A DNA stretch of 64,000 nt from the NCBI GenBank assembly GCA_902790375.1, contig CADARY010000002.1, positions 25,488 through 89,487 on the forward strand. Reading direction: 5' to 3'. Shown here in pieces: positions 44,268 through 61,004 of this stretch. The stretch is from Oscillospiraceae bacterium. Its GTDB lineage: Bacteria > Bacillota > Clostridia > Oscillospirales > Oscillospiraceae. Numbering within the stretch: position 1 is the first letter of the stretch; the number at the start of each line of letters is the position of its first letter. Under the pieces are notes generated by a model, which was given only the letters and a program-made list of their open reading frames with translations, had not been told where the DNA came from and made no database searches. The translations under genes were made by a program, and so were the position numbers.

Positions 44268-45266
44268 ATGAACTTAGATGCAATCCATGACATCCCGGAT
44301 ATCGTGATGGAGTTTCTCGAATATCACTCTACAGTGCGCGGTCACTCCGACAGAACTGTTGCCGGGTATTATCTCGATTTAAAAATTCTTTTCCGCTACC
44401 TGAAGCGAAGACGTCATCTCGTCCCGAGAGATGTGCCTTTTCAGGAAATCGATATCACGGATATCGACCTGGACTTTATCAAGTCGATCCGTATAGAAGA
44501 GCTTTATCGATACCAGTCGTTTTCGCCCGAATTTGAAAACGGCAGCCATTCATTATCCGCTGCAAGCCGCTGCCGCAGGACATCGTCCGTAAAGTCCTTT
44601 TTTAATTATCTTACATTAAAGCGTCATCTGCTGGATCAAAACATTTGTCAAGAACTTGACATGCCGAAGCGTCAGGCGTCCTTACCGCGTTATCTTGAAG
44701 AATCTGAGTGCGAACGTCTGCTGGCCGCCTGCGATGGAGCTTTTGCAGAGAGAGATTACGCGATTCTTATGCTGTTTCTCTCCTGCGGCCTGCGTGTCTC
44801 AGAGCTGGTATCGCTCAACCTGACAGATGTCTATGAAGACCATGTGCGTGTTCTCGGCAAAGGCAATAAAGAAAGAGTCGTCTTTTTCGCTGAAGGCTGC
44901 CGCGAAGCCATTGATGATTATTTAATGGTTAGAAATGACGAAAATGTCAAAGAAGCAGATAAAAAAGCCCTGTTTATCAGCAGAAAAAACTGCCGGATCG
45001 GGACACGCGGCGTACAAAACATGCTGGAAAAGAAGCTCCTGGCAGCCGGGCTTGATGCAAGCAGATATTCTCCGCATAAGCTGCGCCATACGGCAGCGAC
45101 CCTGATGCTGAAAAACGGTGTGGATACCCGTGCCCTGCAGGAAGTCCTGGGTCACAGCAACCTGAACACCACGCAGATCTATACTCACCTGGACAATGCC
45201 GCCCTGCATGAAGCTGCAATGGCCAACCCCATCGGCCGTAAGACAAAGGACGAAATCGAAGGTTGA
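44268..45266 (+). CDS. tyrosine recombinase, Xer-like
   Basis: 332 residues; GAAGGAAC precedes ATG 44268. N-terminal core-binding SAM-like domain (about 10-125) and C-terminal catalytic domain with all active residues: Arg in CGLRVSEL, Lys in GKGNKER, HKLRH, GHSN and the Tyr in TQIYTHL. Slightly longer than XerC/XerD (about 300), with an insertion around residues 85-100. Single gene between two terminators. Its stop codon lies inside the first unit of a tandem TTKACATAA repeat, which may be its binding site. It could be a chromosome-dimer resolvase paralogue or the integrase of a small element; a second Xer protein is at 55.1 kb. Confidence 0.88.
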   Translation: MNLDAIHDIPDIVMEFLEYHSTVRGHSDRTVAGYYLDLKILFRYLKRRRHLVPRDVPFQEIDITDIDLDFIKSIRIEELYRYQSFSPEFENGSHSLSAASRCRRTSSVKSFFNYLTLKRHLLDQNICQELDMPKRQASLPRYLEESECERLLAACDGAFAERDYAILMLFLSCGLRVSELVSLNLTDVYEDHVRVLGKGNKERVVFFAEGCREAIDDYLMVRNDENVKEADKKALFISRKNCRIGTRGVQNMLEKKLLAAGLDASRYSPHKLRHTAATLMLKNGVDTRALQEVLGHSNLNTTQIYTHLDNAALHEAAMANPIGRKTKDEIEG

Positions 45267-45340
45267 CATAATTCTAAATTGAGGTTTACATAATTATAGA
45301 AGTTGACATAATGCAAAATCAAGGTTTACATAATGCTAAA
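45261..45340 (+). repeat. two imperfect 40-bp tandem repeats, four TTKACATAA words
   Basis: TTGACATAA at 45263-45271 and 45303-45311, and TTTACATAA at 45285-45293 and 45325-45333; spacing 22, 18, 22, so the unit is 40 bp. The words resemble the XerD arm of dif (reverse complement TTATGTMAA). Sits between the recombinase stop codon and its terminator. Confidence 0.75.
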
Positions 45341-55130: not shown

Positions 55131-56021
55131 TTATGCTCTGGGATGCGCTTTGTTATACACATCCTTCAATTGCTTTTTTACAAGCTGTGAGTACATATGC
55201 GTGGAAGAAATATCCCGATGGCCCAGCATCTCCTGAATTGCATGGATGTCCGCGCCGTTTTCAAGCAGATGCGCCGCAAAGGAATGGCGGAGGGTATGCG
55301 GCGTAATGTCTTTTTCAATCCCGGCCTTTTTCTGATAGTGTTTGACGATCTTCCAGAAGCCCTGGCGGGACATCCTTTCGCCGCTGACATTGACGAACAG
55401 AGACTGCTCATCCGGCATGAGGATCATCTGCGGGCGAACCAGCGTGATATAATCGCTCAGCGCTTTGACTGCGGCCGGATACATGGGGATAAAGCGCTCA
55501 CGATTGCGGCTGGCGCAGCGGATCACGCCGGCAGCAAGATTCACATCGGAGATGTTGAGCTCAATCAGCTCCGTAACACGAATGCCTGTGGCGTAAAGCA
55601 GCTCCAGCATGGCCTTATCCCGATACCCCTTCGGGTCGATGCATTTGGGCTGCTCCAGCAGAAGCTCGACCTCCTTGCTGGTCAGGATCTCCGGCAGCTT
55701 CTGCGTGCTCTTGTCCGGAACCAGGCCCTGCGCGGGATTCACCGTGATCAGCTGCTTGATGAACAAATGTGCGTACAGGCACTTGATCGAGGCGATTGAA
55801 CGTGATACAGTAGCAACAGACTTGCCGTTGGCGCGCAGCATCTCAATATATTCCGACAGCTCCTCGGCTGTCGCATCAACAATGCTGTGCTCTGTGCTGC
55901 TGTCAAGGTAATCGGCAAGCTGCCGAATATCTCTCAAGTATGAGCTGAGGGTGTTTGCAGATGCTTTTTTATCCTCGACGAGATATTTTTCGAACATCTC
56001 AATACACTCGGAATTCTGCAT
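55131..56021 (-). CDS. xerD: tyrosine recombinase XerD
   Basis: 296 residues, the standard XerC/D length; AAGGAGGGCGTTTTGA precedes ATG 56021. N-terminal core-binding domain, then catalytic ATGIRVTEL (Arg), HTLRH, GHRD and the Tyr in STHMYSQL. The beta-hairpin normally reading GKGxKER reads ASRNRER, so the conserved catalytic Lys appears missing or displaced. It resolves chromosome dimers at dif in relatives. Its promoter at 56162-56190 lies between inverted TTGACATAA words. Confidence 0.88.
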   Translation of the reverse strand: MQNSECIEMFEKYLVEDKKASANTLSSYLRDIRQLADYLDSSTEHSIVDATAEELSEYIEMLRANGKSVATVSRSIASIKCLYAHLFIKQLITVNPAQGLVPDKSTQKLPEILTSKEVELLLEQPKCIDPKGYRDKAMLELLYATGIRVTELIELNISDVNLAAGVIRCASRNRERFIPMYPAAVKALSDYITLVRPQMILMPDEQSLFVNVSGERMSRQGFWKIVKHYQKKAGIEKDITPHTLRHSFAAHLLENGADIHAIQEMLGHRDISSTHMYSQLVKKQLKDVYNKAHPRA

Positions 56022-56137: not shown

Positions 56138-56320
56138 AATTGACATAACTGCTTTGGTAACAATATATTACAAGTCTTCAAAATAATCAAGTGTTTTTTT
56201 CGTTTTTTTGAAAATTATTTTTCGCTTATGTCAACTCTTGTTACTTTTTTATTGCAGATCTCGCCCTGAACAAGCGGCAATAATGTGCCAGAAAAGGCTT
56301 TATTGTTTTCATTATGTCAA
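56138..56320 (+). repeat. three TTGACATAA words around the xerD promoter
   Basis: TTGACATAA at 56140-56148 on the plus strand, and on the minus strand at 56226-56234 and 56312-56320. The first two are inverted and enclose 77 bp containing the xerD promoter. GTAACAA words also recur in inverted orientation (56157-56163, 56238-56244). No gene is present in 56022-56311. Confidence 0.6.
56162..56190 (-). promoter_or_regulatory. sigma-A promoter of xerD
   Basis: Minus strand TTGATT (56185-56190), 17 bp, TATATT (56162-56167). Confidence 0.65.
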
Positions 56321-58478: not shown

Positions 58479-58522
58479 AATCATCATCGCATCGCCGTAA
58501 CTCACGGGAGTAAGGAGATGCA
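58479..58522. repeat. attachment-site copy A (tgt-side junction)
   Basis: Plus-strand core AATCATCATCGCATCGCCG (58479-58497) is the reverse complement of the queA 3' coding end (GDAMMI). 58479-58522 matches 59282-59325 over 44 bp with two mismatches. On the minus strand the frame continues into EERKRPVS and a stop, probably the original queA C-terminus. Confidence 0.75.
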
Positions 58523-58550
58523 TGGATATTCATTCTTCAAATCCTTCTAA

Positions 58551-58643
58551 GGCAATACCGCATAATTCGGCAAGAGCAGATCCTGAGAAAATTTGGGTTC
58601 TGATAAAGGCACTTTTTCGCAGATGTACTTTGTGTACCTCAAG
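58551..58643 (+). repeat. 93-bp dispersed repeat, copy 2
   Basis: Identical to 51647-51739. It lies inside cassette 1, between junction A and the DUF2442 gene, and is followed immediately by a terminator-like hairpin. Confidence 0.92.
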
Positions 58644-58663
58644 CCGGGAAGATTTCCCGGCTT
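58641..58663 (+). terminator. terminator-like hairpin after repeat copy 2
   Basis: Perfect 10-bp stem AAGCCGGGAA / TTCCCGGCTT (58641-58650, 58654-58663), triloop GAT, then TTGGTTTATT on the plus strand. Its U-rich side is on the plus strand, as if ending a transcript through the 93-bp repeat. Confidence 0.65.
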
Positions 58664-58668
58664 TTGGT

Positions 58669-58917
58669 TTATTGCGTACAAATACTGTTCTCGTACAGCT
58701 CATGCGGAGCAATATCCTGTCCGTTTACCCATTCAATTCCGATACCGCCCGGAAGCAGATGAACAGACTTGAAGTACGCTTCGTCTCTCAGCTCTCCAAA
58801 CCACGATCCGTTGGCATATGGCGTAACGTCAAACACCTTTATTTCCCCGGTTTCATAATGGAGGCAAAGCCTCATATCCGGCAAGGGTTCAACAGAAGTA
58901 AGTCTTGGCTGCAGCAC
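58669..58917 (-). CDS. DUF2442-family protein (cassette 1)
   Basis: 82 residues from GTG 58917 with AGGAGG 6 bp upstream. Family pattern: an N-terminal strand pair (RLTSVEPLPDMRLCLHYETGEIKVFDV), a middle LRDEAYFKSVHLLPGGIGIEW, and the terminal DIAPHELYENS. DUF2442 genes are often found next to DUF4160 genes, as here (12 bp gap). Suspected, not shown, to form toxin-antitoxin-like pairs. Confidence 0.82.
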   Translation of the reverse strand: MLQPRLTSVEPLPDMRLCLHYETGEIKVFDVTPYANGSWFGELRDEAYFKSVHLLPGGIGIEWVNGQDIAPHELYENSICTQ

Positions 58918-58929
58918 AGTTTTCCTCCT

Positions 58930-59196
58930 TTATCTCAGCGGATCAATACGGAAAAACTGTTCTCCATTGGAAAGCAGCTTCCAGTTTGCTTCGAGCTCTT
59001 CTTTGTGAATCTCCATCCAAGCTTCAAGCAGCTTGAGTTTTCCTTTTGGAAACGATCCTTCAATAATGGAACCGTCAAGCGCAACAACAATTTCTTCGCC
59101 AGAATACTCGGCGTGGATGTGAGGCAGCTTGTGTCTTTCGCCAGTTTCTCTGTACATACGTACTATGATTCCGTAAAAAGCGCTTAATACCGGCAT
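58930..59196 (-). CDS. DUF4160-family protein (cassette 1)
   Basis: 88 residues from ATG 59196 (GGAGGAG upstream; GTG 59202 possible). Family motifs: MPVLSAFYGIIVRMY at the start, HKLPHIHAEYSGEE near residue 23, the helix LEAWMEIHKEELEANW and end FFRIDPL. First gene of the cassette, with its own promoter. Function unknown; DUF2442 partner follows. Confidence 0.85.
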   Translation of the reverse strand: MPVLSAFYGIIVRMYRETGERHKLPHIHAEYSGEEIVVALDGSIIEGSFPKGKLKLLEAWMEIHKEELEANWKLLSNGEQFFRIDPLR

Positions 59197-59218
59197 AGTC
59201 ACTTCTCCTCCGGTTCAT

Positions 59219-59247
59219 ATTTTATCAGAACGATATTTAACAGTCAA
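59219..59247 (-). promoter_or_regulatory. sigma-A promoter of cassette 1
   Basis: Minus strand TTGACT (59242-59247), 17 bp, TAAAAT (59219-59224), between junction B and the DUF4160 gene. Confidence 0.78.
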
Positions 59248-59272
59248 CAGCAAACAAAAGCCGTGTCAAAAC

Positions 59273-59325
59273 AGTTTACATAATCATCATCGCATCGCCG
59301 TAACTAACAGGAGTAAGGAGATGCA
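59273..59325. repeat. attachment-site copy B (between the two cassettes)
   Basis: Core 59282-59300 identical to copies A and C. Adjacent AGTTTACATAA (59273-59283), reverse complement TTATGTAAACT, matches the XerD arm of dif as I recall it from Bacillus. Minus-strand order is an 11-bp GC arm, 6 bp (TGATGA), then the 11-bp AT arm, the geometry of a Xer site. Confidence 0.75.
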
Positions 59326-59343
59326 AAACGATTCATATACATA

Positions 59344-59394
59344 AAACGCCAACCGCCAAGCACACTCACACCGAGCAACTCTTTGGCAGTTGGC
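59344..59394 (-). terminator. terminator of cassette 2
   Basis: Minus strand stem GCCAACTGCCAA / TTGGCGGTTGGC (59383-59394 with 59348-59359, one G-T pair), then GTTTTAT. Lies 3 bp beyond the DUF2442 stop codon. Confidence 0.75.
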
Positions 59395-59397
59395 ATC

Positions 59398-59703
59398 TCA
59401 GCCGCTCTTAAGCGCTTGCCCCCCCTGGGGAACTGAATTTTCGTACAGATATTCCGGTGAAATGTCAATGTCTCCATCCTTCCATACCGGAATCCCGTAG
59501 TCTATATAGACGTCGCGGAACACGGCTTTATCAGCCAGCGGGGCAAAGGCAGGAGAATCAAGGAGCGGTTTGAAGTCAAAAATCCTCGCCTCTCCGGTAT
59601 TGAAGCGAATCCAGAGAAGATATTTGTCCATCGCCCTTATACCGCTGATCTTGATCGGAATGGAAGGCTCTCCGGCATAGGCAATACCGTCTATGATATA
59701 CAT
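59398..59703 (-). CDS. DUF2442-family protein (cassette 2)
   Basis: 101 residues; GGGAGGAAAAAAG before ATG 59703. Same pattern as the cassette 1 protein: ISGIRAMDKYLLWIRFNTGEARIFDFKPLL, then DKAVFRDVYIDYGIPVW and DISPEYLYENS. Clearly homologous but well diverged, so the two cassettes are not a recent tandem duplication. Confidence 0.82.
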   Translation of the reverse strand: MYIIDGIAYAGEPSIPIKISGIRAMDKYLLWIRFNTGEARIFDFKPLLDSPAFAPLADKAVFRDVYIDYGIPVWKDGDIDISPEYLYENSVPQGGQALKSG

Positions 59704-59717
59704 TCTTTTTTCCTCCC

Positions 59718-59829
59718 TTAATGCAGAGGATCAATCTTTCCAAACGGAATATTTCTTACCGCCTTATTCCAGGCCTCATACAGTTCATCCTCGTGGATCG
59801 ATGTTATAAAACCTGCAGAGCTCAGGCAT
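59718..59829 (-). pseudogene. DUF4160 remnant (cassette 2), internal deletion and frameshift
   Basis: The first codons (MPELCRFYNI) match the DUF4160 N-terminus. A second frame then gives IHEDELYEAWNKAV...FGKIDPLH, matching the C-terminus. About 50 codons in between are missing and the two parts are out of frame; the first frame stops after 14 codons. The DUF2442 partner remains intact. Confidence 0.75.
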
Positions 59830-59857
59830 ACTTCATCCCCCGTTTGTTGTCAGTATC

Positions 59858-59886
59858 ATTATACCAGCGATTAAAACTCCGGTCAA
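59858..59886 (-). promoter_or_regulatory. sigma-A promoter of cassette 2
   Basis: Minus strand TTGACC (59881-59886), 17 bp, TATAAT (59858-59863) with extended TGG. Placed between junction C and the DUF4160 remnant, the same position as in cassette 1. Confidence 0.82.
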
Positions 59887-59915
59887 CTGAATGTTTAAAT
59901 GATGATTATACCAAA

Positions 59916-59943
59916 CAATTACATAATCATCATCGCATCGCCG
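59916..59943. repeat. attachment-site copy C (queA-side junction)
   Basis: Core 59925-59943 lies within the queA end; adjoining CAATTACATAA (59916-59926) resembles the arm at copy B and supplies the present queA stop codon. Confidence 0.72.
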
Positions 59944-60941
59944 AAGGAGAAGAAGCGGTAGCGCATTTTTACCGCCGTGTCATACGCATGCAGGATATTC
60001 TCACGCCCGGCCAATGCGGAAACCAGCATGACCAGCGTGCTTTCCGGCAAGTGAAAATTGGTGATGAGGCCGTCAATGCATTTGAAGCGATAGCCCGGAT
60101 AGATAAAGATATCTGTCCATCGTGAGCCGGCCCGCAGAGTCCCATCCTCCTCTGTGAAGCTTTCAAGCGTACGGCATGAGGTTGTCCCGACCGCGATCAC
60201 ACGACCGCCGTTTTTCTTGACATTGTTCACAATATCGGCGGTTTCTTGGGAGACCACACAAAACTCCTGGTGCATTTCATGATTCTCGATCTCTTCCTCT
60301 TTAACCGGGCGGAAGGTCCCAAGCCCCACATGCAGCGTAACAAAACATACCTTCACGCCCATCTCTTCGATCTGCTTCAACAGTTCCGGGGTAAAATGCA
60401 GTCCCGCTGTCGGCGCCGCCGCGCTCCCGAGTTCCCGGGAATAGACAGTCTGATAACGCTCGGCGTCCTTCAGCTCTTCCTTGATGTAAGGCGGCAAGGG
60501 CATTTTTCCAAGGCGCTCCAGAACCTCCAGAAAGATCCCCTCATAATGGAACTGGATGATCCGATTGCCGCCCTCCGCTACATCTGCCACTGTGGCGGTC
60601 AGCTCTCCGTTGCCAAAGGACAGCTCTGTGCCGGGCTTCGTCTTTCGGCCCGGGCGGCTCAGGCACTCCCAGCGGCCATTGCCCAAATCCCGCAGCAGCA
60701 CCAGTTCCACGCTGCCGCCGGTTTTGCGGCACCCCAGAAGCCTTGCCGGCAGAACACGGGTATCATTTAAGACCAGGCAATCCCCGGCGCGGAGATATTG
60801 AGGCAGCTCGTAGAAATGACGATGCTCCATGGCGCCGGTTTCCTTATCCAGATGCAGCAATCTTGAGGCATCGCGCTTTTCCAAGGGAGTCTGTGCAATC
60901 AGTTCCTCCGGCAGTTCATAGTAAAAATCCGATTTTTTCAA
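59919..60941 (-). CDS. queA: S-adenosylmethionine:tRNA ribosyltransferase-isomerase
   Basis: 340 residues from TTG 60941 with AGAGGAAGACT upstream; a longer frame lacks a ribosome site and crosses the promoter. [15 protein letters not shown] at the start, APTAGLHFT near residue 172, [20 protein letters not shown] and the end [12 protein letters not shown]. Makes epoxyqueuosine from preQ1-tRNA. The last codons are supplied by junction C; the ancestral tail probably continued as at copy A. Confidence 0.94.
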
Positions 60942-60975
60942 AGTCTTCCTCTGTCCTTTTTTATGGTGTTTTGGT

Positions 60976-61004
60976 ATTATAACAGAACTCTTTTCGGTTT
61001 TCAA
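60976..61004 (-). promoter_or_regulatory. sigma-A promoter of queA
   Basis: Minus strand TTGAAA (60999-61004), 17 bp, TATAAT (60976-60981), 35 bp before the TTG start. Confidence 0.8.

Follow-up and report, generated by a model that had tools for sequence, protein, structure and literature searches.

Cassettes with DhiTA-type genes but no integrase at the 3′ end of queA point to site-specific, target-restoring insertion in an Oscillospiraceae bacterium

How did the 3′ end of queA come to be present three times in succession, with small genes between the copies? We analysed a 64,000-nucleotide stretch of an Oscillospiraceae bacterium genome (assembly GCA_902790375.1, contig CADARY010000002.1, positions 25,488 to 89,487; hereafter the window), in which two short segments, here called cassettes 1 and 2, lie between queA and tgt. 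We consider it probable, at about 65%, that both are minimal integrative cassettes inserted site-specifically at the end of queA by a recombinase supplied in trans. Exact repeated cores, unlike flanks and shared arms support this explanation, and the locus as a whole points to an integrase-free, target-restoring form of insertion in a group of rumen bacteria, similar to a tiny cis-mobilizable element (CIME) that borrows its recombinase.

Repeated queA ends and the cassettes between them

The core sequence AATCATCATCGCATCGCCG occurs exactly three times in the window, at 58479–58497 (copy A), 59282–59300 (copy B) and 59925–59943 (copy C), always in direct orientation, with 803 bp from A to B and 643 bp from B to C. 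Followed in its reading direction, queA leads into core C and cassette 2, then core B and cassette 1, then core A, and finally the tgt leader and tgt. A search of the bacterium's own genome (a 3.1-Mb draft in 95 contigs) with the 18-mer, allowing up to three mismatches, returned exact matches only at these three queA-end places and two 3-mismatch matches elsewhere, against none for the reversed-pattern control. Copies A and B have a further 25-bp arm in common, over which the right ends of the two cassettes align at 92%, and copies B and C share six further exact bases (TTACAT) followed by a similar AT-rich stretch. The repeats, the segments that they bound and both kinds of arm had been noted in a preliminary description made from the letters of the sequence, and our analysis reproduced them. 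Window coordinates of these parts are as follows.

59919–61004, minus strand: queA, the target gene (Pfam Queuosine_synth, 2e-143)
59925–59943, minus strand: core copy C, where the working queA ends (exact repeat)
59912–59924, minus strand: left arm of cassette 2, ATGTAATTGTTTG, source of the current queA stop codon (repeat and arm scoring)
59301–59924, minus strand: cassette 2, between cores B and C (repeat analysis and alignment to relatives)
59298–59324, minus strand: conserved right arm of cassette 2, GCATCTCCTTACTCCTGTTAGTTACGG (genus pattern search)
59282–59300, minus strand: core copy B, junction of cassettes 2 and 1 (exact repeat)
59270–59281, minus strand: left arm of cassette 1, ATGTAAACTGTT, which contains a XerD-like match (repeat and arm scoring)
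58498–59281, minus strand: cassette 1, between cores A and B (repeat analysis and alignment to relatives)
58495–58521, minus strand: conserved right arm of cassette 1, GCATCTCCTTACTCCCGTGAGTTACGG (genus pattern search)
58479–58497, minus strand: core copy A, regenerated queA 3′ end and right end of cassette 1, beside the tgt leader (exact repeat)

The working queA now terminates in GDAMMIM-stop within cassette-derived sequence, as had been proposed. At copy A the frame, read from the letters, is GDAMMIEERKRPVS-stop, and the preliminary description took the additional residues EERKRPVS for the original queA tail. That frame is present, but a relative with a single cassette, G477, still has GDAMMIE-stop there, and in most relatives the stop comes one residue past GDAMxI; EERKRPVS is therefore probably read-through that arose after the displaced native stop decayed, and unlikely to be the original tail.

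Both cassettes carry recognizable cargo, in agreement with the earlier assignment of DUF4160 and DUF2442 genes and of a DUF4160 remnant in cassette 2.

58930–59202, minus strand: DhiT-like toxin gene (DUF4160) of cassette 1 (Pfam 2.2e-21; NCBIfam DhiT 1.8e-16, below cut-off)
58669–58917, minus strand: DhiA-like antitoxin gene (DUF2442) of cassette 1 (Pfam 2.1e-11)
59718–59843, minus strand: C-terminal DUF4160 (DhiT-like) remnant of cassette 2 (likeness to the toxin tail of cassette 1, by eye)
59398–59703, minus strand: DhiA-like gene (DUF2442) of cassette 2 (Pfam 2.5e-11)
59219–59247, minus strand: promoter-like site of cassette 1, TTGACT-17-TAAAAT (consensus match only)
59858–59886, minus strand: promoter-like site of cassette 2, TTGACC-17-TATAAT (consensus match only)
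58641–58663, no strand assigned: hairpin following the cassette 1 genes, with a stem of 10 pairs (scan; T-rich tail on the plus strand)
59348–59394, minus strand: hairpin after the cassette 2 gene, GCCAACTGCC...GGCGGTTGGC (read from the sequence; not flagged by the scan)
58548–58643, minus strand: dispersed repeat resembling a miniature inverted-repeat transposable element (MITE), inserted in cassette 1 (own-genome matches; absent from the G477 cassette)

The available text of the DhiTA report describes DUF4160/DUF2442 as a type II toxin–antitoxin system that works in Dickeya dadantii and Escherichia coli, with the toxin gene first (PMC8198452). Cassette 1 has the same Pfam pair in the same order, and we regard it as a probable toxin–antitoxin pair; its toxin scores 60.5 bits against a curated DhiT cut-off of 100, and so counts as a DhiT relative rather than an established member. 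Cassette 2 has no intact toxin gene, only a toxin tail ending ...IHEDELYEAWNKAVRNIPFGKIDPLH-stop, and its DUF2442 protein shares 25 of 80 aligned residues with that of cassette 1. No integrase was found in either cassette, in line with the preliminary description (the reading frames of both were listed and four were compared with Pfam), and PADLOC returned no match for three cassette proteins. The same description gave each segment its own promoter and hairpin. Consensus-like sites and hairpins are indeed present, but neither is in clear excess over shuffled sequence (two sigma-70-like sites against a shuffle mean of 2.1; two terminator-like hairpins against 1.5), and we accordingly assign them by position.

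The MITE-like repeat, with ends GGCAATACCGCA and TGCGGTGTTGCC, gave 40 scored matches among 129 candidates in the own genome, the window copy included. Several lie at contig ends, and a number of copies lose the right end just past CCTCAAG.

In the mechanism we envisage, a cassette of about 0.6–0.8 kb would comprise an 18–19-bp attachment core that duplicates the 3′ end of queA, a left arm with a new queA stop, a promoter, a DhiT/DhiA-type operon, a hairpin and the conserved right arm. A circular copy would recombine with the queA end, site-specifically and within the core; queA would receive its last codons from the cassette, and its old end would be left at the far side, usable by a further cassette or for excision, and cassettes could stack in tandem. 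The enzyme would act in trans and would most likely be a tyrosine recombinase from a helper element or from the host, and a toxin–antitoxin pair would aid persistence of the cassette.

Empty, occupied and deleted sites among relatives

A degenerate queA-end pattern matched 73 of 102 genomes of the genus, and a census of the queA 3′ end covered the 76 with queA loci from pattern or locus searches. In 47 of these, tgt lies within 140 bp of the core, which we score as an empty site. Three (the window's own genome, G477 and G430) have a second core copy with no more than three mismatches, 19 have other sequence adjoining queA (G481 and G431 among them), and in seven no queA end was recovered by the script motif. 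G477 carries a single cassette of 714 bp, with a core on either side, both its genes (DUF4160 and DUF2442) intact and the tgt leader following the second core; it has neither cassette 2 nor the MITE-like repeat, and most of the shortfall from 803 to 714 bp comes from the missing repeat. In G481, the genome's own queA is followed by the same left end, an internally deleted DUF4160–DUF2442 region, the same hairpin, the same right arm and a slightly altered core; three other genes and an rfbA-like gene come next, and tgt is more distant still. In G444 and G452, queA is followed by the rfbA-like gene (named by eye here and in G481) with no cassette, the empty form of that gene order.

The cassette pieces of G481 are 97.7% (133 bp), 88.6% (175 bp) and 90.6% (53 bp) identical to those of the window, whereas the chromosomal genes are 76.7% (queA, 1,013 bp) and 80.6% (tgt, 1,126 bp) identical. 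From this contrast, which vertical descent does not readily explain, we conclude that the cassette moved between lineages. The right-hand core of G481 begins GGAGATGCGATGATA, nearer the ATGATG and ATGATA of the window and G477 than G481's own ATGCTT, as though the cassette had brought its donor's queA end along. At a minimum, two insertions of a DhiTA-type cassette would be required, plus cassette 2. The DhiT-like and DhiA-like genes of cassette 1 differ from those of G477 at dN (non-synonymous divergence) of 0.025 and 0.027 and dS (synonymous divergence) of 0.135 and 0.188, compared with dS of 0.264 for queA and 0.304 for tgt; both cassette genes are under coding constraint, and their silent divergence is somewhat below that of the neighbouring genes, over short genes. 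The comparison of queA–tgt regions that the preliminary description proposed has thus yielded empty sites, a single-cassette relative and a second gene context. Its idea of small, mobile, target-restoring cassettes, which a fixed arrangement or plain tandem duplication of queA would have overturned, survives, with mobility in evolution backed by these three states.

The arms recur with the insertions. The right arm GCATCTCCTTACTCCYGNNAGTTACGG has four sites in three of the 102 genus genomes, every one at a queA end, and a looser pattern retrieved two records from the GTDB collection, the two outside genomes already found in the genus. Neither the right arm nor the left-end pattern occurred in viral contigs, and we rejected a dispersed att site, since in the collections searched the right arm is restricted to queA ends. 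A stricter left-end pattern was found in one of 400 family genomes, the bacterium's own (the sample held ten genus genomes, neither G477 nor G481 among them). Across the same family sample, queA ends were matched in 294 of 400 genomes; among the roughly 150 places listed, none from a genus genome, no two lay within 40 kb on one contig. On our reading, arm and first core bases form an imperfect inverted repeat, GCATCTCCTTACT-CCYGNN-AGTTACGGCGATGC, whose four copies vary only in the middle six bases, save one core base in G481. Conserved arms around a variable centre resemble a tyrosine-recombinase binding site, a lead rather than a result, as the four copies are related and the three right ends folded as DNA do not stand out (z −1.15 to −1.23; 23 to 27 of 200 shuffles fold as well).

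The left end of cassette 2 (59865–59943, minus strand) contains an 11-bp perfect inverted repeat of the right half of the core (ATGATGATTAT / ATAATCATCAT; fold z −2.48), which was not seen in cassette 1 (z +1.48).

Other inserts occur at the site. In G430 (L051) and G431 (L064), 72 and 95 bp of inserted sequence separate queA from a second copy of its end; both inserts begin ATACTATA, a type of end unlike that of the cassettes, and are possibly relics of another element. In G481 (L106), the cassette and the rfbA-like gene are separated by about 1.1 kb, which holds three small genes and, just before the rfbA-like gene, a remnant resembling a queA tail (ATGATTAGTAGAG), perhaps a second insert with other cargo.

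Several points weigh against trans-mobilized cassettes. The circle, the class of enzyme, the addiction role and present-day mobility are parts that we infer. The cassette family is confined to three genomes (the window's own, G477 and G481), and the assemblies compared are drafts. Cassette and queA are similarly close between the window and G477 (95.0% and 93.3%), so these two may share one old insertion, and some copies may be fossils, since cassette 2 and the G481 copy are broken. The other notable stretch common to the two cassettes, weak as it is (28 bp, 82%, at the toxin-gene end), makes a distant common origin of the whole cassettes possible. Finally, no integrase was noticed by eye, with no family search, at the queA 3′ sides printed for 19 loci (16 of them without a close tgt), so no obvious helper shares the site.

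The chief rival, which we hold to be unlikely, is that the locus is a decayed and immobile CIME array: the dead remains, now passively inherited, of one or more larger integrative elements that lost their integrase. Cassettes without an enzyme, the truncated toxin of cassette 2, the internal deletion in G481 and the relic-like inserts of G430 and G431, each with its second queA-end copy, all fit such decay. Yet the cassettes of separate lineages agree in both ends and in their minimal content, and they resemble one another far more closely than do the chromosomes that carry them, from which it follows that the small unit itself moved; the constraint on the cassette 1 coding sequence likewise argues against dead remnants.

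Candidate recombinases and the Xer-like motif

Which enzyme might have moved the cassettes? The own genome has 16 tyrosine-recombinase matches (PF00589), some of them partial and two Xer-type genes included; candidate enzymes therefore exist, though none is linked to the queA site. The two Xer-type genes lie about 2.5 kb (XerD-like) and 13 kb (XerC-like) from copy A.

55131–56021, minus strand: XerD-like recombinase of the host, candidate trans-acting enzyme (NCBIfam XerD 7.7e-98, 327.4 bits against a cut-off of 329.6)
44268–45266, plus strand: XerC-like recombinase, candidate trans-acting enzyme (NCBIfam XerC 3.5e-70, 236.7 bits against a cut-off of 335.15)

The XerD-like protein belongs to the host itself, and its gene is kept in the empty-site relative G174. 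The preliminary description saw Xer at work here, and a second rival, slightly less credible to us than decay, develops that view: host XerC and XerD would move the cassettes, in the manner of integrative mobile elements exploiting Xer (IMEX) or of dif modules, at a dif-like site in the queA end, whose XerD arm would be TTATGTAAACT and whose 6-bp centre would be TGATGA. The 11-bp arm, which we take, as the preliminary description did, to be identical to the XerD arm of Bacillus dif, is exact at the left ends at copy B and in G481, the cassettes have no integrase, both Xer-type genes are near and have the TTATGTnAAC motif beside them, and known dif modules can hold toxin–antitoxin pairs, according to the available text of PMC6449649. 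Against this, the arm matches at 8 of 11 positions at the two remaining left ends (copy C and G477), the right-hand junctions reach only 5 (copy A), 7 (G477) and 3 (G481), and scores of 6 or 7 are already found at five empty queA ends, in part because the stretch must carry the queA stop codon. Within a 28-bp dif-type site the opposite arm, CGGCGATGCGA, is queA coding sequence. It presumably lacks Xer character on the XerC side, and the sites are direct repeats at a coding gene rather than at dif.

The motif itself is widespread. With up to one mismatch it occurs five times in the window against 0.29 expected. One of these copies lies at the cassette, another upstream of the XerD-like gene, and the remaining three shortly after the XerC-like gene. 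Across the genus a constrained form gave 78 matches, in 53 of 102 genomes, against 21 for a reversed control, and TTATGTnAA motifs recur in intergenic DNA of the genus as well as adjoining both nearby Xer-type genes. By these counts TTATGTnAAC is a real motif, enriched in the genus and not specific to the cassettes, and the 11-bp match says little because the motif is so dispersed. Two pattern searches for a canonical host dif gave no single conserved candidate for comparison; one candidate, on contig 7 of the own genome, was discarded (it lies inside an open reading frame, in surroundings unlike those of the G477 match). With weak right-junction scores, a dispersed motif and no canonical dif recovered, the earlier proposal of Xer is not supported; host Xer as recombinase is possible but unproved, and a tyrosine recombinase from a helper is no less likely. 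A fuller version seems to us more doubtful still: live, enzyme-free toxin–antitoxin cassettes of rumen clostridia would use host Xer at a dif-like queA end and would parallel plasmid dif modules, but on the chromosome and with direct repeats, the motif also being clustered next to the xer genes of the host. Ordinary tandem duplication or homologous recombination around queA is very improbable: G477 and the window share their tgt-side flank, so that part of the pattern may be vertical inheritance, and the 28-bp stretch is common to both cassettes, but the cargo differs strongly where the right arms agree, in G481 the insertion has other gene neighbours and its right flank differs, the flanks do not match as duplication requires, and 18–19 bp is too short for ordinary RecA recombination.

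Some arrangements of the motif are worth recording in their own right. Four TTATGTnAAC copies stand in direct order at 45263–45333, right after the XerC-like stop, with a similar cluster in G477 and fewer in G481; the GC skew of the window switches sign near there. Three TTATGTCAA motifs at 56140, 56226 and 56312, with 86-bp spacing, lie upstream of the XerD-like gene, and a looser motif occurs three times upstream of xerD, 86–87 bp apart, in the window, G477, G481 (farther from the gene) and G174. Pairs and arrays of TTATGTnAA with a 14-bp period are present in other genus genomes (L171, L172, L174, L175 and L176).

Comparison with known systems and relatives elsewhere

IMEX elements, the subject of PMC5357621 and PMC9765430, reportedly integrate through host Xer without an integrase of their own. 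The queA cassettes likewise have none and would borrow host recombinases; IMEX target dif, whereas the cassettes sit at the queA end. Integron cassettes resemble them as small one-operon tandem units with shared ends and different cargo, but have a GTTRRRY boundary consensus, and the queA cassettes have no such boundary, fold weakly at the right ends and carry promoter-like sites of their own. We rejected the integron assignment, as the right ends do not form attC-type hairpins (z values above) and XerD and XerC are the best models for the two nearby recombinases, whose scores against integron models are far below cut-off.

The arrangement appears closest to CIMEs, which accrete in tandem at gene 3′ ends (PMC5704250), and to the 15 ssrA islands of Dehalococcoides without integration modules, which their authors say might be CIMEs (PMC3146451). 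As far as the available text of those reports goes, these share with the queA locus direct repeats of the target end, a lack of integration and transfer genes, tandem stacking and a restored target; the window has att-type direct repeats with a restored queA end and no integrase or transfer genes inside. The queA cassettes differ in their size of about 0.7 kb, constant minimal layout, protein-gene target and the absence of any noticed integrase-bearing sister at the site. Plasmid dif (pdif) modules of Acinetobacter are alike in size and cargo, being small and integrase-free and including a toxin–antitoxin add dif module of 768 bp, in the available part of PMC6449649. Their Xer sites are recognizable and inversely oriented, to judge from a cited title (Blackwell and Hall 2017), whereas the three queA cores are all direct repeats, gene-derived, with one arm only XerD-like. 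Literature searches, with subscription journals mostly outside their coverage, found no earlier description of a queA cassette element and no precedent for queA as a protein-gene attachment site; one report that they returned, in its available text, concerns a tRNA-Leu beside tgt and queA (PMC2647930).

If mobilized in trans, the cassettes would show how toxin–antitoxin pairs can spread without a carrier of their own and would make queA a protein-gene attachment site. At one toxin–antitoxin operon plus an attachment site, they would, to our knowledge, be among the smallest integrative units. Naturally occurring empty, single, tandem and deleted states make the question of mobility testable.

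Beyond the queA site, the DNA of the region had no match among plasmids, and flanking repeats at five of 32 listed non-queA DhiT-like places were only weak pairs, none core-like. Two viral-contig loci, with identical results, contain many internal repeats, none of queA type by eye. DhiT-like genes themselves are present in 25 of the 102 genus genomes, and DhiT relatives were found in 26 plasmid records (all below 60% identity), four phage records and four viral-contig loci, the last with identities of up to 82%.

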